64,000 nucleotides of DNA from assembly GCF_003259185.1 (NCBI RefSeq), contig NZ_QGMP01000003.1, positions 124,001 to 188,000 on the forward strand, read 5' to 3'. Source of the DNA: Isoalcanivorax indicus. GTDB lineage: Bacteria; Pseudomonadota; Gammaproteobacteria; Pseudomonadales; Alcanivoracaceae. Below the pieces are notes generated by a model. That model was given only the letters and a program-made list of their open reading frames with translations, had not been told where the DNA came from and searched no databases. Below, piece by piece: positions 40,569 to 52,740 of the stretch (the stretch's first letter is position 1; every line of letters starts with the position of its first letter). A program made the position numbers and the translations under genes.

Positions 40569-41306
40569 ATGGACCCTGTCTGGTGGCTGATACTGCCCGC
40601 CGCATTTCTCGGGGGTGCACTGAATGCGGTGGCCGGCGGCGGCAGCTTTCTGACGCTGCCGGCGTTGCTCTGGGCCGGTGTGCCGCCGGTGGCCGCCAAT
40701 GCCACAGGGACGCTGTCGTTGCTGCCCGGTTATCTGGCCAGTTGTGCGGGCTACCGTCGCGAGCTGCGCCGGGTGTGGCAGGACTGGCCACTGCCGGGGA
40801 TCCTGCTGCTGACGGTAGCGGGCGGTGGCCTTGGGGCCGCCTTGTTGCTGCTCACCAGCGATGTGCTGTTTCGCGCCCTGGTGCCCTGGCTGCTCGGGCT
40901 GGCCACCGTGCTGTTTCTTCTGGCGCCGCGCTTGCTCGGGGTGACGCGTCGCCTGCCATGGGGGGCGCTCGCGGTCGCGCTGTTACTGGTGTCGGTATAC
41001 GGCGGCTACTTCAATGGTGGTCTGGGTATCATGCTGCTGGCGCTGTTCGTGCTGGCGGGGCCGGGTGATCTGCACCAGGCCAACGCCCTGAAAAATGTCT
41101 GTTCTGCCTTGCTCACCCTGATGGCGGTGCTGGCCTACGCTCTGGGCGGCGCACTGGTGTGGCGCCTTGGTGTGCCGATGATGCTGGCCGGGGCTCTCGG
41201 GGGCTATGTCGGCGCGGCATGGGGACGGCACCTGCCTGTCGCGGTGCTGCGCGGGCTGGTGATCTTCACCGGTGCGAGCATGACCCTCTGGTTTGCCGTG
41301 ACCTGA
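40569..41306 (+). CDS. TauE/SafE (TSUP) family permease
   Basis: 245 residues with about eight hydrophobic segments. It belongs to the TSUP family that exports sulfite, sulfoacetate and related anions. The first motif LGGALNAVAGGGSFLTLPALLWAGVPPVAANATGT is highly characteristic, as is the second-half repeat YGGYFNGGLGIMLLALF. It lies 12 bases after the DUF3299 gene and could ride on the zrg transcript. Substrate unknown. Confidence 0.88.
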   Translation: MDPVWWLILPAAFLGGALNAVAGGGSFLTLPALLWAGVPPVAANATGTLSLLPGYLASCAGYRRELRRVWQDWPLPGILLLTVAGGGLGAALLLLTSDVLFRALVPWLLGLATVLFLLAPRLLGVTRRLPWGALAVALLLVSVYGGYFNGGLGIMLLALFVLAGPGDLHQANALKNVCSALLTLMAVLAYALGGALVWRLGVPMMLAGALGGYVGAAWGRHLPVAVLRGLVIFTGASMTLWFAVT

Positions 41307-41391: not shown

Positions 41392-44259
41392 GTGCGCAGG
41401 GACAGCATGGTGTTCAGACAATCCTTCGGCCGGGCTCTGGGCGTTGCCACCGCAACCCTTTTCAGTGTCCCGGTGGCCGCAGCACACGATAGCCAGCCCC
41501 TGGTGGACGATCTGCGTCTGCTGTATATCAGCGCAGTGATCATTCTGATCCTGTGTCTGTCTGTGGTCTGGGCGCTGCGTCAGGCGCGCAAGCTGATGGA
41601 TCGGCGTATTCGCACCGCCAATGCGAGGTTGCGTGCTGAACGCGACATGCTCGCCGGGGAGCGTCAGCGACTGGATAACCTGATGCATACGGCGCCCGCC
41701 GTCATCTACAGCGCCCGGCTTGGCGATCGTGAACTCACCTACCTGAGCCCCAACTTCACTACACTGCTGGGTTATCCGGTGACCTCCGAAGTGCTGGAGG
41801 TGCACTGGTGGAGCCATCGCTTGCACCCGGAGGATTCGCCACGCGTCGATACCCTGGAATGGGATCGCTGGGACAACGATCAGTATGTTGGCTATTACCG
41901 TTTCCGCCATGCCGATGGCAGTTGGCGCTGGATCGAGGACCGCTGCCGACTGATTCGCGACCAGGAGGGCACGCCGCGCGAGCGCGTGGGCAGCCTGGCG
42001 GATATTACCGAGCGGGTTGAACTCGAAGGGCGGCTGGAGCGCGAGCAGCAACGTGCCAATCTGGCGCTCACGGGTGCCAATCTGGGCCTGTGGGAGTGGC
42101 AGCTCAGTACCGATGACGTGGTCTTCAATGATCGCTGGGCGGCGATGCTGGGCTACAAGCCCGAGGAAGTCGTGCATTCCATGCGCGATGCCGCCCAGCT
42201 GGTTCACCCCGAAGATCGTCGCCATGTGCGCGAGGCGCTGGTGCGGCATCTGACCGGCCAGACCGACCACTATCAGGCGGAATACCGGATGCGTCACCGC
42301 GACGGGCACTGGGTCTGGGTGCTGGATCGCGGACGGGTCATGGCGCGCGACCGGAACGGACATGCGCTGCGGGCCAGCGGCACGCATCTTGATGTCACCG
42401 AGTTGTATCTGTCGCGGGAACTGCTGCGGGAAAACGAGGAAAAATTCCGCTCTCTGTACGAGTACGCTCCCATCGGCATCATGCTCAATCGCATGTCGGA
42501 CGGGCGTTTTGTGGAAGTCAACGAAGCCATCGTTCAGATGACCGGGTACAGCCAGGAGGCCCTCCTGGCGATGAACTTCTGGGACCTGACGCCGGAAGAC
42601 TATGTGGATGAAGAAGCGGCGCATTTCGAAAGCCTGAGCAGCACCGGTGTGTACGGTCCGTATGAAAAGATGCTGCAGTGTGCGGACGGCAGGCGCTTGC
42701 CGGTGCAGGTCAATGGCGCGCTGATACTGGACCGCCATGGTGAAGCCATGGTCTGGATGCTGATCCAGGACATCAGCGAACGACAGCGTGCCGAGCGCCT
42801 CAAGAGAGAGTTTGTGTCCACGGTCAGCCATGAGTTGCGCACCCCGCTGACCTCCATCAAGGGCGCGCTCGGGCTGCTGTCGGGCGGCGCCTTTGGCACC
42901 ATGCCCGATGCCGTGCGGCAACTGCTGGATATTGCGGTCAAGAACAGTGACCGGCTGACGCTGTTGATCAATGACCTGCTGGACATGGAGAAGATTGCAG
43001 CGGGCAACATGCGGTTCGATATGCAGCCCCATGCCCTGCAGCCCTTGTTGCAACAGGCGCTGGAGAGCAATCGTGGCTATGCCCAGCAGTATCAGGCGCG
43101 GCTGGTCTTGCGCGATGACGCGCCCGGCGTGCATGTGCGGGTGGACGGTGACCGCTTCCTGCAGGTCATGGCCAACCTGCTGTCCAACGCCATCAAGTTC
43201 TCACCTCCCGGGGGCGAGGTGGAGGTGCGCATGGTGGCGCGCGGCAGGAAGGCGGTGCGGATCATGGTCACCGATCAGGGGCCCGGCGTGCCGGAAGATT
43301 TCCGGCAGCAGCTGTTCGGGCGCTTTACCCAGGCAGACAGCTCGGACACGCGCCCCAAAGGTGGCACAGGGCTTGGTCTGGCCATCACCAGAGAGCTGGT
43401 CGAGCGTATGGGGGGGCGTATTGCGCTGGCGGATCACGAAGGCTCCGGCGCCTGCTTTTACGTGGAATTGCCCAGCATTGTGGTATCCGACGATAACGAG
43501 GTCGAGGCGGACAGCTTGCTGATAGTGGATGACCGGGCGGACGTGGCCATGCGCCTCACCGCGTTGTTGCACGACGCCGGTTATGTTGCTGAACGGTCGC
43601 CGGACACGCAGGACGCCTTGACCAGGCTCCACAACGAGATGTTTGCGGCCGTGATCGTGGATGTACACCTGGAGGGCGTGCTCGATTTCCTGCGGGACAC
43701 GCGGGCAGATGAACGACTGTCGCAGTTGCCGGTGGTCATCGTCGCGGCGTCGGTGGAGGACGGCCACTTGCGGCTGTCTGCAGATCTGGAAGCGCTCGAC
43801 TGGTTGCCCAAACCGGTGGACCGTCAACGGCTGCGTGATGCGTTACGGCTTGGCCTGCCTCATCCCGGGCAGAATGGGCGGCCCCGGGTGCTGCATGTCG
43901 AAGATGACATGGATCTGAGCAGGGTGCTGTCGCTGGTCGGGCGTGAACTGGCGGATTTCGACGTGGCGCCGACCCTGGCAGAGGCCAATGCCTGCCTGGC
44001 CCGCCATCACTATGACGTGGTGGTGCTCGACCTGACCTTGCCGGACGGGAGCGGAAGCAGTCTGTTGCCGGTCATGAGCCGGATGTCACCCGCGCCCGCT
44101 GTGGTTATCCTGTCTGCCTCGGATGCTGATATTCAGGACAGTGAGGCGATGCAGGCCGACGTGGTGGCCGCGCTGGTGAAATCCCGCGCCTCGAATGCCT
44201 CACTGCTGGAAACCTTGCGCCGCGCCGTCGATCATGCGCGGGCAGACCAACGGAGATGA
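41392..44259 (+). CDS. Hybrid sensor histidine kinase, three PAS and two receiver domains
   Basis: 955 residues from a GTG with GAGGGGAG upstream. A signal-like segment (about 13-31) and one membrane helix (about 45-62) leave only a short periplasmic loop, so sensing is probably cytoplasmic. Three PAS domains follow (about 95-210, 222-345, 350-465), then HisKA with the phospho-accepting His480 in SHELRTPLTS, then an HATPase with N box (NLLSNAIKF), G1 (DQGPGVPED) and G2 (GTGLGLAI). Two receivers follow, with Asp757 and Asp880. No HPt domain is present, so phosphate could move from receiver to receiver only through another protein. It is the first gene of a six-gene coupled cassette ending in a glycosyltransferase. 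Confidence 0.93.
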   Translation: MRRDSMVFRQSFGRALGVATATLFSVPVAAAHDSQPLVDDLRLLYISAVIILILCLSVVWALRQARKLMDRRIRTANARLRAERDMLAGERQRLDNLMHTAPAVIYSARLGDRELTYLSPNFTTLLGYPVTSEVLEVHWWSHRLHPEDSPRVDTLEWDRWDNDQYVGYYRFRHADGSWRWIEDRCRLIRDQEGTPRERVGSLADITERVELEGRLEREQQRANLALTGANLGLWEWQLSTDDVVFNDRWAAMLGYKPEEVVHSMRDAAQLVHPEDRRHVREALVRHLTGQTDHYQAEYRMRHRDGHWVWVLDRGRVMARDRNGHALRASGTHLDVTELYLSRELLRENEEKFRSLYEYAPIGIMLNRMSDGRFVEVNEAIVQMTGYSQEALLAMNFWDLTPEDYVDEEAAHFESLSSTGVYGPYEKMLQCADGRRLPVQVNGALILDRHGEAMVWMLIQDISERQRAERLKREFVSTVSHELRTPLTSIKGALGLLSGGAFGTMPDAVRQLLDIAVKNSDRLTLLINDLLDMEKIAAGNMRFDMQPHALQPLLQQALESNRGYAQQYQARLVLRDDAPGVHVRVDGDRFLQVMANLLSNAIKFSPPGGEVEVRMVARGRKAVRIMVTDQGPGVPEDFRQQLFGRFTQADSSDTRPKGGTGLGLAITRELVERMGGRIALADHEGSGACFYVELPSIVVSDDNEVEADSLLIVDDRADVAMRLTALLHDAGYVAERSPDTQDALTRLHNEMFAAVIVDVHLEGVLDFLRDTRADERLSQLPVVIVAASVEDGHLRLSADLEALDWLPKPVDRQRLRDALRLGLPHPGQNGRPRVLHVEDDMDLSRVLSLVGRELADFDVAPTLAEANACLARHHYDVVVLDLTLPDGSGSSLLPVMSRMSPAPAVVILSASDADIQDSEAMQADVVAALVKSRASNASLLETLRRAVDHARADQRR

Positions 44260-44261
44260 TG

Positions 44262-44654
44262 ATGGCCGAACTCAAACGCATCCTGTATGTGGAAGATGAA
44301 CCCGATATTCGCGCCGTTGCAGAACTGGCGCTGGAGACCGTGGGTGGCTTTGAACTGTGCAGTTGCCACAATGGCGAGGATGCCCTGCGCAAGGCGGAAG
44401 CGTTTGCGCCGCAGTTGATGATTCTGGACGTGATGATGCCCGGCATGGATGGGCCGACCACGCTGGCGGCGTTGCATGAAGTGCCTGCGCTGGCGACGGT
44501 GCCCGCCGTGTTCATGACGGCCAAGGTGCAACCCGATGAAGTGAGCCAGTTGCTGGCGCTGGGGGCGCTGGAAGTGATTGCCAAACCGTTTGATCCCATG
44601 CAGCTGGCCCAGCGCGTACGCATTATCTGGGATGCGCATCAGTTGGGGAGATAA
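44262..44654 (+). CDS. Stand-alone response regulator receiver
   Basis: 130 residues, only a CheY-like receiver. The acidic pocket YVEDEPD at the start, phosphorylation site Asp56 in LILDVMMPG, the switch Thr in FMTAK and Lys in IAKPFD are all present. No output domain. The ATG at 44262 has GGAG at 44252-44255; two ATGs directly upstream (44256, 44259) overlap the kinase stop. The kinase stop lies only two bases before. Such single receivers act by protein-protein contact. Confidence 0.9.
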   Translation: MAELKRILYVEDEPDIRAVAELALETVGGFELCSCHNGEDALRKAEAFAPQLMILDVMMPGMDGPTTLAALHEVPALATVPAVFMTAKVQPDEVSQLLALGALEVIAKPFDPMQLAQRVRIIWDAHQLGR

Positions 44655-44655
44655 C

Positions 44656-45057
44656 GTGACGGAACCGTTGGTATTGCTGGTGGAAGATGACCCGCTGGTA
44701 GGCGAGCTGCTGGAGTATCTGCTCGGGCGTGAGGGGTTTGCTGTCCACTGGTCGCGGGATGGGCGCGCGGCCCATGAGCAGATTGCCTCGGGCCGGGCAT
44801 TCGCCGGCGCCGTCCTGGATGTCATGTTGCCCTACGTGGATGGCTACTCGCTGGTGCGTCAGTTGCGTGACAGCGAGGCGCACGCGGGCATACCGATCCT
44901 GATGCTGACAGCCCGTGCCCAGGAACAGGATGTGGTACGGGCACTGGATCTCGGCGCGGACGATTATCTGGTCAAGCCGTTCCAGCCCGGCGAGCTGACC
45001 GCACGACTCAGGCGCCTGATGAAGCGCCGTGACACGCCAGGGAGACACGCCACATGA
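44656..45057 (+). CDS. Second stand-alone response regulator receiver
   Basis: 133 residues starting with GTG one base after the previous stop, with GGGGAG upstream. The fold is a CheY/OmpR-type receiver: LLVEDDPLVGELLEYLL, Asp55 in VLDVMLPYVDGYSL, LMLTAR and VKPFQPGEL with the conserved Lys. It ends after the final helix (RLRRLMKRRDTPG), so no winged-helix output follows. It overlaps the YaiO-type gene by ATGA. With the kinase receivers this makes four receiver domains in one cassette. Confidence 0.9.
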   Translation: MTEPLVLLVEDDPLVGELLEYLLGREGFAVHWSRDGRAAHEQIASGRAFAGAVLDVMLPYVDGYSLVRQLRDSEAHAGIPILMLTARAQEQDVVRALDLGADDYLVKPFQPGELTARLRRLMKRRDTPGRHAT

Positions 45058-46265
45058 AACAGTGTCTGGCAGTGTTGCTGCTGTGTGGGTGGTCGGCGCT
45101 GGCGCAGGCGGCCTGGCAGGCGCAGGTGCGTGACACGGTCGCCGATCATGATCTGCATCGGGCGCGCGCTCAGGTGGAAGCGGTGTTGCGGGCGCGGCCG
45201 GACGACCCGGCAGCGCGTCTGTGGCAGGCGCGCATCGATGCCCTGCTCAACGATCATGCGCTGTCGCGCGCCCGCTTTGACGCCCTGCTCGCGGACTATC
45301 CCGAGGATGTGGATATCCGCTTTGCTTCCGCGCAGCAGTATGCCTGGCAGGGCAATACCGACGCGGCGCTGGACGAGTTGGCCGTGGCCCGTTCGCTGGC
45401 GCCGGATTACGCCAGTGTCTGGGCGTTCGAACTGCAGGTGTTGCAGGCGCGTGCCCGTGACACGCGCGATCCGGCCCATGTCAGCGCCTACGCCCGGCGA
45501 CATCGCGAGGCCCGCGAGCGGGTGCCGGAAGTGGCCGAGGCCTGGCCCGAAGAGGCGCTGCCGCCCTTCAGCTGGCGCCGCCGCCGGGTGCTGGATATCG
45601 GCTATGAAGAAGATTACCTCAGCGGCGACCGTGATGACTGGCGTGGTGCGGACATCGGCCTGCAATGGCAGGACAGCCGTGATCGGCTCTGGTACACCCG
45701 GGCGCGGCACACACGGCGTTTTGATCAGGACGACATGGAGGGCAACCTGGGGGTCTATCTGCCCATGGGGCGCCAGCGCCAGTTGCAACTGGATGCCACC
45801 TACAGCGACACAGCCCGCATCCGCCCGCAATGGTCTGCCTACGCTGGCTTCTACTGGATGCCACATCCGCGCTGGGGAGTGCAGCCGGGCATGCGGCGCA
45901 CCCATTACGAGGACAGCGACAGCACCACGGCCAGCCTGCTGACCGAGCATTACCGGGGACAATGGCGTTACGCCTACACTTTTTTCTTCACCCGGCTGGA
46001 TGGCGGCGGCACGGCGCCCGCGCACGTACTGGATGCGCGGCGTTATTACCGTGATACCAGCCATGTGGGGGCCGCCGTGGGCATCGGCAAGGACATCGAA
46101 TCCCTGCCAACCGGGGAGCTGGTCACCGATGTGCTCGGCGTCTCTGTCTTCGGTGAGCATTTTCTTGACCCGGACTGGAGCGTGACCTGGCGCCTGGGCT
46201 GGACAGAACAGGGAGATCTGTATGAGCGCAGCGGCTGGCGGCTGGGGCTCCGCTATCGGTTCTGA
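45054..46265 (+). CDS. YaiO-family outer-membrane protein with TPR-like N-terminus
   Basis: 403 residues. A signal peptide (MKQCLAVLLLCGWSALAQA) is followed by about 120 residues of TPR-type helices (RAQVEAVLRARPDDPAARLWQARID; FDALLADYPEDVDIRFASAQQY; ALDELAVARSLAPDY), then a YaiO-type beta-barrel from about residue 178 with alternating residues and terminal Phe (LGLRYRF). The periplasmic TPR plus barrel layout resembles export proteins of glycan systems (for example PgaA, NfrA). Directly downstream, 44 bases overlapping, is the HEAT gene. It may form the exit pore for a polymer. Confidence 0.85.
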   Translation: MKQCLAVLLLCGWSALAQAAWQAQVRDTVADHDLHRARAQVEAVLRARPDDPAARLWQARIDALLNDHALSRARFDALLADYPEDVDIRFASAQQYAWQGNTDAALDELAVARSLAPDYASVWAFELQVLQARARDTRDPAHVSAYARRHREARERVPEVAEAWPEEALPPFSWRRRRVLDIGYEEDYLSGDRDDWRGADIGLQWQDSRDRLWYTRARHTRRFDQDDMEGNLGVYLPMGRQRQLQLDATYSDTARIRPQWSAYAGFYWMPHPRWGVQPGMRRTHYEDSDSTTASLLTEHYRGQWRYAYTFFFTRLDGGGTAPAHVLDARRYYRDTSHVGAAVGIGKDIESLPTGELVTDVLGVSVFGEHFLDPDWSVTWRLGWTEQGDLYERSGWRLGLRYRF

Positions 46266-47304
46266 CCCGGCATTGCTGGCCGTGCTGCTGGCCGGGGCGG
46301 GGTTGCTGTCCAGTACCCTGCTGATGCTGCTGGCGACGGTCTGGTTGCACTGGCGGCACGGCCGCCAGGATGCCCGCACCGCCGCCCTGCGCCGTGACTG
46401 GACCCCTCGTCTGTTCAACCTGTTGACGGCCGCCCCTGGTCAGCGTCAGGCGCCGTTGCCATCCGTGGCCAGGCGTGATTTGCCCTTGCTGGTTGGTCTG
46501 TGCAATGCCCTTCAGGACACGGTGCGCGGCGTGTCCCTCGATCCGCTGCATGATCTGGCCCGTCAGCTTGATCTGCTGCCGCACCTGCGCCGCTGGCTGC
46601 GCAGCGGCAACACGGATCGTCGTCTGGATGCCCTGACCTGTCTGGGTCATCTGCGCATTCATGACGCCTGGCCCGATGTGCTGCAATATCTCGATGACCG
46701 GGACAGCGTCATGAGCCTGACCGCCGCGCGGGCGCTGGTCGCCATCGACGCCGAGCGCGGGCTGCCGGAAATCCTCCAGCGACTCAATCGCCCCGACTGG
46801 TCCAAGAGCCGGGTCAGCGCACTGTTGAAAGAAGTGCCCGCCAATGTTCTGGCACGTCACCTGGGCGCGCGGTTCGAGCGCCTTGATGCGGTGGCACTGC
46901 GCAAGCTGATTCGCATTGCCGACAGCCTGCAGCCCGGCCAGGTCGACAGCCTGTTGCGCCAGGCCTGTGAACGCTTTCCCGAGGACCCGGAGCTGCGCAG
47001 CGCCGTATGCGCCTGCGCGGACGGCCCGCAGTGGCTGGGCATGATTCGCGCCGCCGTGACCGACCCGGTATGGATCGTGCGCGTGCAGGCGGTGCAGGCG
47101 CTTGGCCGTCTTGGCGATACCCGCGACCGGGCCCTGCTGGCGACGCGCCTGAGCGATCCGGTCTGGTGGGTGCGTTACCGCGCCGCCCAGGCCCTGCTGG
47201 CGCTGCCGGGGGCCGAGCGCCGTGATCTGGAAACCCTGGCCGCGGCGCATGACCAGCCGCAGGTGCGCGAGATACTCGCCCATGTCCTGTCGGAGCCCGA
47301 CTGA
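46222..47304 (+). CDS. HEAT-repeat inner-membrane protein
   Basis: 360 residues. One N-terminal membrane helix (about 16-43) followed by a basic stretch (HWRHGRQDARTAALRRDW), which by the positive-inside rule places the rest in the cytoplasm. The rest is a chain of HEAT-like helical pairs (e.g. DRRLDALTCLGHLRIHDAWPDVLQYLDD; VMSLTAARALVAIDAERGLPEILQRL; WIVRVQAVQALGRLGDTRDRALLATRL; WWVRYRAAQALLAL). The 44-base overlap with the previous gene is firm, since GGGAG sits at 46211-46215. Its stop overlaps the glycosyltransferase start (TGATG). A scaffold or regulatory platform for the synthase is the obvious inference. Confidence 0.85.
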   Translation: MSAAAGGWGSAIGSDPALLAVLLAGAGLLSSTLLMLLATVWLHWRHGRQDARTAALRRDWTPRLFNLLTAAPGQRQAPLPSVARRDLPLLVGLCNALQDTVRGVSLDPLHDLARQLDLLPHLRRWLRSGNTDRRLDALTCLGHLRIHDAWPDVLQYLDDRDSVMSLTAARALVAIDAERGLPEILQRLNRPDWSKSRVSALLKEVPANVLARHLGARFERLDAVALRKLIRIADSLQPGQVDSLLRQACERFPEDPELRSAVCACADGPQWLGMIRAAVTDPVWIVRVQAVQALGRLGDTRDRALLATRLSDPVWWVRYRAAQALLALPGAERRDLETLAAAHDQPQVREILAHVLSEPD

Positions 47305-48773
47305 TGAGCCTGTTTGAAGACCTGCTTGCCGCACTGCCGGGGGACCGCCTCATCGTCTGGGCGCAGTGGTTCTTTCTGAGCTACTTCATCGCGCTGGCAC
47401 TGGGCTACCTGATGCTCAACCTGATGGCGCTGTCGGCCATCGGCAAGCACACCCGCGCGGCCCGCGCCGAGTACCTGCCACGCCCCTATCATGCCTTCCT
47501 GCCACCGATATCGGTGCTGGTGCCCGCCTATAACGAAGAGGCCAACATCACCTCGTCCGTGCAGGCCATGCTGCAACTGGCCTATCCCGAGCACGAAGTG
47601 GTGGTGATCAACGACGGCTCGCGGGACAACACCCTGGCGGTCCTGCAGCGGGACTTTGATCTGTACAAGGTGCCGGAAACCGCCGATGCGTCGTTGCAGA
47701 CCGCTATGGTGCGCGGCGTCTACCGTTCACGAAGCCAGCCCCTGCTGCGCGTGATCGACAAGGAGAACGGCGGCAAGGCCGATGCCCTGAATGCCGGCAT
47801 CAATTACAGCCGTTACCCGCTGTTCTGCGGCGTGGATGCCGACTCCATCATCCAGCGCGACAGCCTGCTGCGCATCGTTCGCATGTTTGTCGATGATCCC
47901 GACACGATCGCGGCCGGTGGCACCGTGCGCATTGCCAACGGCAGCGAGGTGGACGCCGGCAACCTGTTGCAGGCGCGGCTGCCGAAGCGCTGGTTGCCGC
48001 TGATGCAGATCATCGAGTACCTGCGCGCCTTCATGTTTGGCCGCCTGGGCTGGGAGCCCCTGAATGCCCTGCTGATTATCAGCGGGGCCTTTGGCGTGTT
48101 CCGCAAAAGCGTGGTGGTGGAAGTGGGTGGCTACCGGCACAAGTCCATCGGCGAAGACATGGAGCTGGTGGTGCGCCTGCACCGGCACATGCGCCTCAAC
48201 CGGCGCCGCTACCGGATTCATTTTCTGCCCGACCCGGTGTGCTGGACCGAAGCCCCCGAAGACCTGGCGACATTGCGTTCGCAGCGCATTCGCTGGCAAC
48301 GCGGCTTGCTGGAAAGCCTGTCCGCCAACAGCACGCTGTGCTGCCATCCCCGTGGCGGCACCGTGGGCTGGCTGGCCTTTCCGTTCATGCTGATCTTCGA
48401 GGCCATCGGCCCGTTACTCGAGCTGGGCGGCTATCTGTTTGTGATCGTCATGGCATTGACCGGCGCCTTGAGCCCGGCCTGGATCATTGCCTTTTTACTG
48501 GTGGCTATCGGCCTGGGCATCCTGATGTCCGTGCTGGCCCTGCTGCTGGAAGAGCTGTCATTCCGCATCTATCCCGGCAAGCGCTCCATCCTGCGATTGT
48601 TCGGGGCTGCCCTGGCGGAGAATCTCGGCTATCGCCAGCTCAACACCTGGTGGCGCGTGCGCGGCACCTGGCAATGGCTGCGCGGCAAGCAGGCCAAATG
48701 GGGCGACATGAAACGCAGCGGCAGCCTTCAGCGCGCTGCGATCAACTCGAAAGAGCGCAACCGCGACGCATGA
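47304..48773 (+). CDS. Membrane-bound family 2 glycosyltransferase (processive type)
   Basis: 489 residues. One N-terminal membrane helix (about 18-42), a cytoplasmic GT2 domain and three C-terminal membrane helices (about 355-386 and 391-416). Catalytic motifs: NDGS with Asp104, DAD (178-180), the ED pair (Glu284/Asp285) and the QRIRW motif (327-331). The ED and Q-x-x-R-W motifs mark processive enzymes such as cellulose, PNAG and hyaluronan synthases. No PilZ domain is present. The gene ends 46 bases inside the convergent oxidoreductase gene. Sugar donor is unknown. Confidence 0.9.
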
Positions 48774-51199: not shown

Positions 51200-51556
51200 T
51201 GGTGGAGCCGGCGGGAATCGAACCCGCGTCCGTCAGCAATCCACCTGCAGGTCTACATGCTTATCCCAGTTTATTGATTTGAGTGACTGCAGCCCAACGG
51301 GCAGGACGCAGACACCGAGCCCCTAAAGGTTTTAACAGCGCAATCCGGGGCGGACGTTGCTGCGATCCCGTGTAGCTATGCCGGTCGCGCTTCCCCACGG
51401 GCTGGGTCGCTTGACCGTTGGCAGGCCTTAGGCCGCCAGTGCGTAAGTATCGTCGTTTGCGATTACTTTAGTTTGTCACTAAGGATTTACGAGAATCGTG
51501 ACCTTCTCGGCATGCACCACAGGATTCATAACCGGCGTCGAAACCTTGTCGGCCCC
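51200..51556 (-). ncRNA. ssrA: tmRNA
   Basis: 357 bases. The 5' end GGGGCCG (51556 downward) pairs with CGGCTCC before the encoded CCA (51200-51202), with the G3-U pair needed for alanine charging. The T-arm GGGTTCGATTCCCGCC is seen in the 3' half. The tag reading frame (51428-51460) encodes ANDDTYALAA followed by TAA, a one-residue variant of the pseudomonad ANDDNYALAA. tmRNA with SmpB rescues stalled ribosomes and marks the product for proteolysis. The smpB gene lies 560 bases upstream. A -10-like TACAAT (51567-51572) precedes it at suitable distance. Confidence 0.97.
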
Positions 51557-52117: not shown

Positions 52118-52594
52118 CTAGCGCTGCCGCATGATCCGCTGCTTCTGGCGGTTCCAGTCGCGCTCTTTCTCGGTGGCGCGCTTGTCGAACTTCTGCTTGC
52201 CCTTCGCCAGGGCAATTTCCAGCTTGGCGCGGCCCCGGCTCCAGTACAGGCTCAGGGGCACGCAGGTATAACCTTCCTTTTGCACGCCGGCAAAGATGCG
52301 GCCCAGTTCGCGCTGGTGCAGCAGCAGCTTGCGCAGGCGCAGCGGGTCCGGGTTGATGTGCGTGCTGGCGGTGCCCAGCGGCTCGATCCGGCAGCCGAAC
52401 AGCCACGCTTCCCCGTCTTTCAGGGTGATATACGCCTCTGACAGGTTACAGCGGCCGTCACGCAGGGATTTTACTTCCCAGCCTTCCAGCACCAGTCCTG
52501 CCTCGAAGCGGTCATCCAGATGATAGTCGTGGCGCGCCTTGCGGTTGACCGCAATATTGGCAATGCCCGACTTGGCTTTTTTCGGTGTCGTCAT
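52118..52594 (-). CDS. smpB: SsrA-binding protein
   Basis: 158 residues. SmpB binds the tRNA-like domain of tmRNA and mimics the anticodon stem in trans-translation. Signatures: [34 protein letters not shown] near residue 14, [22 protein letters not shown] and a basic tail ending [26 protein letters not shown] type. The ATG at 52594 is preferred over an upstream TTG-like start because the family begins [10 protein letters not shown]. The tmRNA gene lies nearby. Confidence 0.96.
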
Positions 52595-52740
52595 GGGGGC
52601 GGCAGTATACCTGATTGACACGGAAATGCTGCTCCCCTCTCGGGTGGGCAGGGGGTTGGCCTGGTGTTTGCTTGGTGTTTGCTTGAGCCGCCGGGGTAAA
52701 GTCGGGAAAATGGCCGCTTTCGCGCAAGCAGGAACAGGGC

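Follow-up and report, generated by a model that had tools for sequence, protein, structure and literature searches.

The stretch of DNA analyzed here, referred to as the window, comprises 64,000 nucleotides from Isoalcanivorax indicus (assembly GCF_003259185.1, contig NZ_QGMP01000003.1, positions 124,001 to 188,000). Positions 41392-48773 of the window hold six intact open reading frames (ORFs), all on the + strand. They encode a hybrid histidine kinase (HK), two stand-alone receivers termed REC1 and REC2, an outer-membrane protein with TPR repeats and a YaiO-type barrel, a HEAT-repeat protein and a membrane glycosyltransferase of family 2 (GT2). Domains were assigned with Pfam at E ≤ 0.01 for the six proteins and for both flanking genes. 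The start of REC2 is a GTG read from the sequence, the ORF listing beginning this frame further upstream, and REC1 has alternative ATG starts. The genes overlap by 4 bases between HK and REC1, 4 between REC2 and YaiO, 44 between YaiO and HEAT and 1 between HEAT and GT2, and REC1 and REC2 are separated by a single base. The ORF listing and the Pfam assignments bear out the original prediction, made from the sequence alone, of one tightly coupled six-gene unit; the tight coupling stood, while the gaps and overlaps given at that time differ in detail from those found here.

Genes of the six-gene unit (positions are those of the window)
Feature	Position	Strand	Length	Domains and motifs
Hybrid HK	41392-44259	+	955 aa	three PAS, HisKA, HATPase_c, two C-terminal receivers (Pfam)
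REC1, stand-alone receiver	44256-44654	+	132 aa	receiver domain only (Pfam)
REC2, stand-alone receiver	44656-45057	+	133 aa from GTG start	receiver domain only (Pfam)
TPR + YaiO-type outer-membrane barrel	45054-46265	+	403 aa	PF19413 and TPR (Pfam)
HEAT-repeat protein	46222-47304	+	360 aa	HEAT_2 (Pfam)
Membrane GT2, processive-synthase type	47304-48773	+	489 aa	GT2 (Pfam); DGS, DxD, ED, QxxRW

On one side of the unit lies a TauE permease gene (40569-41306), on the other a gene for a luciferase-like monooxygenase. The convergent monooxygenase ORF shares 46 bases (48728-48773) with the 3' end of the GT2 gene. A scan of the unit gave no promoter-like sites compared to 1.6 in shuffled sequences, and three terminators compared to 3.8. 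None of the six proteins was found to contain a GGDEF, EAL, PilZ or DNA-binding domain. A PgaB-type deacetylase was not found among the six genes or the two flanking genes, in agreement with the earlier statement that the unit holds no modifying enzyme.

Seven genomes of the genus were searched for the GT2. It was found in four of them (the window, G001, G003 and G005) and not in the other three. The three GT2-bearing congeners keep all six genes in identical order. The ratio of non-synonymous to synonymous substitution rates (dN/dS) was 0.03-0.31 in 17 of the 18 gene pairs (three congeners and six genes), the remaining pair being saturated, and judged from these comparisons the unit is under purifying selection. 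GT2 was the most conserved protein (87-96% identity), while HEAT (62-86%) and the kinase (62-79%) were the least conserved; the kinase was aligned in part only, over 949, 752 and 670 of its 955 residues. Of the seven congeners, the four that have the cassette are also the four that have TauE. The flanking monooxygenase shows 92% identity in cassette-bearing congeners compared to 52-55% in the three that lack the cassette. As a sequence observation, the six-gene unit is confirmed to be real and beyond chance.

Relatives of the GT2 were collected in two ways. For the first set, 41 of 470 plasmid records matched the GT2 at a coverage of at least 80%, and 12 of the 15 plasmid matches listed were examined. 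A scan of a genome collection with a 13-row GT2 alignment gave at least 436 relatives, of which the best 80 were taken. Together with the window this made 93 loci. HEAT adjoined GT2 or was fused to it in 90 of these, with the HEAT of L044 being assigned by a hand-set rule. The loci deviating were L045, where HEAT lies about 6 kb away, and two matches at contig edges (L078 and L113). HEAT and GT2 formed one ORF in six of the 93 loci, and eight natural fusions were found overall. An output receiver was located upstream in 56 of the 93 loci (two were corrected by hand, L092 being added and L094 swapped).

For the second sample whole genomes were searched with the GT2 profile alone, neighbouring genes not being used, although the 13 rows of the profile are themselves HEAT-linked. 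Among the Gammaproteobacteria, 18 of 369 genomes (window included) scored 426-710 bits, the next scores being 203 and then about 150. In the class of Halolamina, 22 of 145 genomes had full-length copies, 23 in all, of which two contain an in-frame stop; broken copies were found in two more genomes. The subfamily was present in 28 of 348 Bacillota genomes and in 7 of 337 alphaproteobacterial genomes. The haloarchaeal, Bacillota and alphaproteobacterial genome sets were centred on gene-bearing genomes, and each count includes its centre. Neighbourhoods were fetched for all 17 other gammaproteobacterial copies and for 19 of the 23 full-length haloarchaeal ones, as well as for 28 of the 29 Bacillota sites and 6 of the 7 alphaproteobacterial copies. 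HEAT, assigned by a purpose-built profile, was found beside GT2 or fused to it in 69 of these 70 neighbourhoods (17/17, 19/19, 28/28 and 5/6, respectively); that of L234 was picked up in a follow-up pass. The only miss was at a contig end (L231, a 3.4-kb contig). In L154 HEAT lies downstream on the other strand, and in L159 it is in broken frames. As an independent check, Pfam HEAT_2 was matched at E ≤ 0.01 in 69 of 70 HEAT proteins (the 69 relatives and the window). None of 30 weaker GT2-like control loci had a HEAT match; these were four loci below the score gap (three gammaproteobacterial, one haloarchaeal) and 26 loci with 1.5-kb flanks.

A receiver was located upstream in 50 of the 70 sampled neighbourhoods (gammaproteobacterial 8/17, haloarchaeal 18/19, Bacillota 19/28, alphaproteobacterial 5/6). 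The YaiO gene was found nearby on the same strand in 15 of 17 gammaproteobacterial loci (16 with L154) and in 5 of 6 alphaproteobacterial loci, compared to 0 of 19 haloarchaeal and 0 of 28 Bacillota loci. In the latter 47 loci, HEAT was present in all and a receiver was upstream in 37. A YaiO-HEAT-GT2 trio was consequently discarded as the core, since all 47, viewed over some 6.5 kb of upstream and 2.5 kb of downstream sequence, lack a same-strand YaiO match. Because HEAT is constant, no YaiO was found in the archaeal and Bacillota loci and the kinase varies, the core is better written as (REC)-HEAT-GT2, and within this sample YaiO is, by sequence, confined to diderm loci. Of the minimal glycan machine formerly seen in the last three genes, the HEAT-GT2 pair was retained, while YaiO has left the core and the receiver has entered it. 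The module occurs in haloarchaea, gut Firmicutes, Bacteroidetes and rhizobia. The archaeal GT2s group together relative to the outgroup only if ungrouped tree rows are ignored.

The complete gene order also recurs. Kinase-REC-REC-YaiO-HEAT-GT2 was found by an ORF-by-ORF check in L032, L051 and L063, and a form with one receiver in L044, L049 and L053; the loci with kinase, receiver(s), YaiO, HEAT and GT2 are from two Mesorhizobium, a Parvibaculum, a Luteimonas and two Stutzerimonas. The conserved gene order by which the prediction was to be judged is thus seen in three congeners and in three distant loci. Plasmid pMESCI01 of Mesorhizobium ciceri shows the same arrangement as the window unit, namely an ATP-binding protein of the kinase cluster, two response regulators, YaiO, HEAT and GT2. 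Past these genes an Hpt gene lies on the opposite strand. In three haloarchaeal plasmids HEAT-GT2 is preceded by a receiver gene.

The receivers were compared in trees. For 141 receiver domains taken from the first set of loci a tree was built in which the 56 HEAT-linked receivers required 14 label changes compared to a mean of 44.2 for shuffled labels, and 0 of 500 shuffles were as low. REC2 groups with these HEAT-linked (output) receivers, which range from proteobacteria to haloarchaea (top identity 55%, L046), while REC1 groups with six other receivers of alpha- and gammaproteobacterial cassettes (7 rows, support 98). REC2 keeps the acceptor Asp, the Thr and the Lys expected for a phosphorelay, and so does REC1 as read from the alignment. 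When 106 HEAT-linked receivers were set against a background of 27 unrelated receivers from five genomes, six label changes were required (shuffled mean 24.6, minimum 22 in 100 shuffles). The nearest bacterial row was HEAT-linked for all 22 archaeal HEAT-linked receivers, and was a background receiver for 9 of the 10 archaeal background receivers. Adding 117 further near-cassette receivers gave 18 changes compared to 80.8 for shuffled labels, and the 22 of 22 remained. An earlier comparison against near-cassette receivers, many of them kinase-attached, was weak (22/22 versus 9/12, p 0.037). Since the alignments are short (120 columns kept), single branches are weak and the claim rests on the clustering. 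This clustering across domains of life suggests that receiver, HEAT and GT2 have travelled together over the divide between bacteria and archaea. At the sequence level, the receiver is co-inherited with HEAT-GT2 in both domains. No more than 60 bases separate the receiver and HEAT ORFs in 13 of the 19 haloarchaeal loci and in 19 of the 28 from Bacillota; in five more haloarchaeal loci the two ORFs overlap, their starts having been taken too far upstream.

The remaining neighbours are less constant. A kinase is missing near many relatives, and the dedicated hybrid kinase of the original prediction is therefore a variable input rather than a fixed part. Bacillota loci L206 and L211 have a PAS-HisKA-HATPase-REC-REC kinase followed by REC, HEAT and GT2, without YaiO. 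The gene before HEAT may also encode a multidomain protein. Nine of ten such proteins scanned have a receiver at their end, and they variously carry Hpt, further receivers, ODP and GGDEF-like domains. GGDEF was matched in 6 of 10 multidomain proteins scanned upstream of HEAT. The GGEEF motif was kept in 5 of 20 proteins of the multidomain cluster, two of which, from Stutzerimonas, are located further upstream and do not adjoin HEAT. In these two loci (L049:2668-4341 and L053:2680-4353) the GGEEF receiver protein lies upstream of the kinase, and phosphorelay and cyclic di-GMP (c-di-GMP) may meet there. The absence of second-messenger domains noted originally accordingly holds for the six window proteins and not for all relatives, some of which carry GGDEF or EAL proteins.

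A receiver-free variant in gut Firmicutes combines VTC-type, DUF4956-type and CotH-type genes (names taken from the Planococcus annotation) with cluster c5, HEAT and GT2, often together with an EAL protein. The VTC-type Firmicutes variant was observed in L042, L109, L114-L117, L119, L121, L123 and L226, in many cases together with the DUF4956-type and CotH-type genes. Cluster c5 had been considered glycoside-hydrolase-like, a label that was dropped as Pfam assigned no family to two cluster members and TPR to a third, and gave only C-terminal HEAT-type matches for L204. In nine Bacteroidetes loci clusters c7 and c8 follow HEAT-GT2; the scanned members of these clusters proved to be a TPR-YaiO and a DUF4838 protein. 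Six loci (L037, L048, L067, L069, L076 and L105) encode a sulfatase/LTA-synthase-like protein of cluster c15 next to the cassette, and this protein could modify the polymer. In L042 (11452-16201), the Planococcus plasmid copy has genes annotated as a Qat anti-phage system in its vicinity. Apart from the cassette, the window holds a tmRNA gene at 51200-51556 on the - strand (tag ANDDTYALAA), and the nearby ORF at 52118-52621 (-) presumably encodes SmpB.

The GT2 residues DGS104-106, D178xD180, E284D285 and Q327R328xR330W331 were invariant in 13 aligned relatives, with E284 nearly so. Of 159 full-length members, among them the window GT2, 158, 155 and 154 had a loose DxD, ED and QxxRW pattern, respectively, at any place in the sequence. 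C-terminal hydrophobic segments span residues 354-422 of the window GT2, and motifs and segments together are those of membrane processive GT2 synthases. The fold comparison rests on the GT2 part of a fused relative, the natural HEAT-GT2 fusion L071 from a Clostridium metagenome-assembled genome, which was modelled as a single chain with a predicted local distance difference test score (pLDDT) of 90.3 and a predicted template modelling score (pTM) of 0.89. Against solved structures (Foldseek) hyaluronan synthases occupied ranks 1-13 and a mannosyltransferase rank 14, followed by cellulose and chitin synthases. These models and homologies suggest a processive enzyme, and the motif alignment and the fold of the relative agree with the earlier assignment to the processive type with DxD, ED and QRIRW motifs. 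The window GT2 was rejected as a member of PgaC/IcaA (NCBIfam TIGR03937, 142.1 bits compared to a curated cut-off of 422.3). PgaC, the nearest named family, gives no more than a guess at the sugar of the window enzyme. A clue to an amino sugar comes from GlmS-like genes, which were found in L033, L084, L089, L092, L162, L186, L190 and L192, eight of 167 loci scanned, five of the eight being haloarchaeal. Genes resembling nucleotide-sugar dehydrogenases and epimerases were found in L043 (Legionella adelaidensis) and in the gammaproteobacterial loci L160-L163.

The model of the window YaiO protein (mean pLDDT 93.4, pTM 0.66) has nine helices, the first including the leader, followed by 14 strands. 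BcsC ranked 1-2 among the nearest solved chains, PelBC ranked 10 and 4y25, a polysaccharide secretin that we take to be PgaA, ranked 14, general porins filling most other ranks. Identities in the matches of L071 and of this protein to cellulose, hyaluronan or chitin synthases or BcsC were 12-16%. A search of solved structures with the YaiO sequence gave no match. The protein scored 73.4 bits for PF19413 (cut-off 23.9) and 140 for TIGR04390 (cut-off 32), which places it in the YaiO barrel family. As modelled, it resembles the TPR-barrel polysaccharide exporters BcsC, PgaA and PelB, which supports its predicted role as exit.

The window HEAT protein has an N-terminal hydrophobic segment (residues 11-36), and a hydrophobic segment was present at the start of 68 of 69 sampled HEAT proteins. 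In L204 (3945-7190, - strand) a domain of about 700 aa with its own leader precedes this segment; it shares 44% identity with a cluster c5 protein of Paenibacillus that is encoded separately, upstream of HEAT. The L204 fusion joins this exported-looking domain, which has no Pfam family, to HEAT through a transmembrane segment, tying an outside protein to the synthase. The L090 HEAT protein has a leader and a weak SPOR match (below the cut-off) ahead of the hydrophobic segment. Both arrangements fit an N-terminus on the outside and HEAT repeats in the cytoplasm. The protein is thus membrane-anchored, its solenoid probably being on the cytoplasmic side, as originally proposed. The topology and the export route are drawn from models and homology. 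The kinase has, by eye, a signal-like N-terminus and one hydrophobic segment (residues 43-61); as little of it lies outside, sensing is probably performed by the cytoplasmic PAS domains.

Altogether, these observations suggest a polymer synthase that is gated after translation by a phosphorylated receiver acting through HEAT, to which we assign a probability of about 0.58. GT2 would polymerise a nucleotide sugar, perhaps of the hexosamine type, at the inner membrane and extrude the chain. HEAT, held by one N-terminal transmembrane anchor, would sit on the cytoplasmic face against GT2. The PAS hybrid kinase, probably via an Hpt protein encoded elsewhere, would set the phosphorylation of REC1 and REC2. 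REC2 would dock on the HEAT/GT2 complex and switch the synthase, filling the place of the c-di-GMP-binding domains in BcsA and NfrB, and the TPR-YaiO protein would take the chain across the outer membrane. Enzyme, exit and co-inheritance are well supported, while binding of the receiver to HEAT, the sign of its effect (on or off) and the identity of the sugar are the most conjectural parts. We infer the switch because it best explains a receiver inherited with HEAT-GT2 even in archaea.

A wider reading has about even odds. It holds that a bacterial and archaeal family of synthases is gated by phosphorylation through a dedicated receiver on a HEAT adaptor, independently of c-di-GMP, with sensors and exits particular to each lineage. 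The sensors would be PAS kinases or multidomain receivers with ODP, Hpt or GGDEF-like parts; the exit would be the YaiO barrel in diderms, none being seen in haloarchaea and Bacillota. If true, a class of synthases that inherits a receiver and a HEAT adaptor of its own would represent a control logic different from that of c-di-GMP. To our knowledge, matrix synthesis in haloarchaea is little understood. The natural fusions and the three-gene archaeal version reduce the system to one small enough for reconstitution.

Several observations weigh against the gated synthase. Contact of REC2 with HEAT or GT2 is itself something we infer. No Hpt was found in the window cassette; the genome has ten Hpt matches, one of them on a 136-aa ORF, and Hpt genes adjoin the Mesorhizobium and Devosia copies of the cassette. 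A same-strand upstream receiver was not found in 9 of 17 gammaproteobacterial and 9 of 28 Bacillota neighbourhoods, so that HEAT must also act without REC. GGDEF and EAL proteins in the clusters of some relatives mean that c-di-GMP may act as an input in these. Branches may also vary in their sugar, since genes for nucleotide-sugar dehydrogenase and epimerases go with the Legionella-like branch. Finally, the acceptor Asp is replaced in 13 of 106 HEAT-linked receivers (Glu in 11, Asn in 2). A non-Asp acceptor was found in 6 of 8 fused HEAT-GT2 loci compared to 7 of 98 others (Fisher p 2.5e-5, the rows not being independent), and fusion perhaps goes with a receiver locked in one state. Receivers with Glu at the acceptor position lie beside the fusions L071, L079, L095, L101, L108 and L223.

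The alternative to be taken most seriously, and still an unlikely one, is that HEAT is an assembly or stability subunit and that the receivers act elsewhere, for instance on another regulator, co-inheritance reflecting co-expression only. HEAT repeats are generic scaffolds, 20 of the 70 sampled neighbourhoods (one a contig end) have no same-strand upstream receiver, and one of ten multidomain receiver proteins scanned (L056) has a helix-turn-helix, so that not all lack a DNA-binding domain. Against this stand the close spacing of receiver and HEAT ORFs in haloarchaea and Bacillota, the HEAT-linked receivers being one related set across domains of life, and REC1 and REC2 themselves, which lack a DNA-binding domain. 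It is improbable that GT2 is non-processive and transfers a single sugar or a few sugars to a carrier lipid or protein. Many GT2s do so, a mannosyltransferase is among the fold matches of L071 and the polymer product of this subfamily is a prediction, but the DxD, ED and QxxRW motifs, the C-terminal hydrophobic block, the polymer synthases among the best folds and the TPR-barrel exporter gene next door in diderms argue for a processive enzyme.

We also find it doubtful that the system ancestrally responded to c-di-GMP, that receivers relay this signal or compete with it and that the window version has lost a GGDEF partner. The GGDEF matches and retained GGEEF motifs of the multidomain proteins would fit, as would the EAL proteins beside some gut Firmicutes copies; however, 15 of the 20 cluster proteins lack the GGDEF motif, it is the receiver and not GGDEF that recurs next to HEAT, and the six window proteins have no c-di-GMP domain. 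That kinase and receivers form an unrelated operon merely abutting a glycan operon is very improbable and already disfavoured. It would account for the relatives with no kinase nearby, but not for the recurrence of kinase and receiver(s) before YaiO-HEAT-GT2 in six proteobacterial loci and before HEAT-GT2 in two Bacillota loci, nor for the gene overlaps and the co-inheritance of the receiver. The gated synthase remains the preferred reading.

Compared to known systems, the window GT2 shares its kind of motifs with the membrane GT2 of PgaABCD/IcaA, and PgaA is a TPR-barrel exporter. The window GT2 falls far below the family cut-off, the unit lacks a PgaB-type deacetylase, the E. coli pga stretch has no annotated HEAT gene, and PgaCD is controlled by c-di-GMP. 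E. coli YaiO/YaiP likewise has a YaiO-type barrel near a GT2; in contrast to the window unit, its 10-kb stretch has no annotated HEAT, kinase or receiver gene, and a putative deacetylase, YaiS, is nearby. The subfamily profile gave 135 bits for PgaC, 66 for YaiP and 16.5 for NfrB, compared to 426-710 for gammaproteobacterial members. Six E. coli proteins were tested with the HEAT profile and none matched; the annotation of the three E. coli stretches examined lists no HEAT gene either. YaiO/YaiP and NfrA/NfrB, offered originally as partial precedents, are therefore weak ones.

In the passages available on E. coli NfrA-NfrB (NGR glycan, phage N4 receptor), a glycosyltransferase synthase is paired with a TPR-barrel pore, NfrB carries a c-di-GMP-binding MshEN-like domain and NfrA has a 16-strand barrel (PMC8669472). 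The window unit likewise pairs a glycosyltransferase with a TPR-barrel outer-membrane protein, the latter having 14 strands in the model, and had no PilZ or MshEN-type match in Pfam at the threshold used. BcsA, hyaluronan and chitin synthases are the nearest solved folds of the L071 GT2 part, and BcsC of the outer-membrane protein. BcsA is described in the same source as being freed from inhibition by c-di-GMP on its PilZ domain (PMC8669472), and more generally the passages available on synthase-dependent exopolysaccharides state that post-translational control frequently involves c-di-GMP (PMC12802240).

A search of the open-access literature, most subscription papers being outside its scope, gave, among the papers listed, none on HEAT-GT2 or REC-HEAT-GT2, in keeping with the earlier remark that a phosphorelay linked to such genes had not been described. 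The closest experimental precedent found, within the passages available, is EpsW of Myxococcus, a lone receiver which when phosphorylated activates the sugar transferase EpsZ by direct interaction (PMC12802240). Both there and in the scheme proposed here a phosphorylated lone receiver acts on a polysaccharide enzyme by interaction. EpsZ differs in being a phosphoglycosyl transferase that starts a Wzx/Wzy pathway, which is not synthase-dependent, and the passages on it mention no HEAT adaptor. The parts of the unit are thus of known kinds, while their combination and the likely control logic are apparently new among synthase-dependent exopolysaccharide systems.

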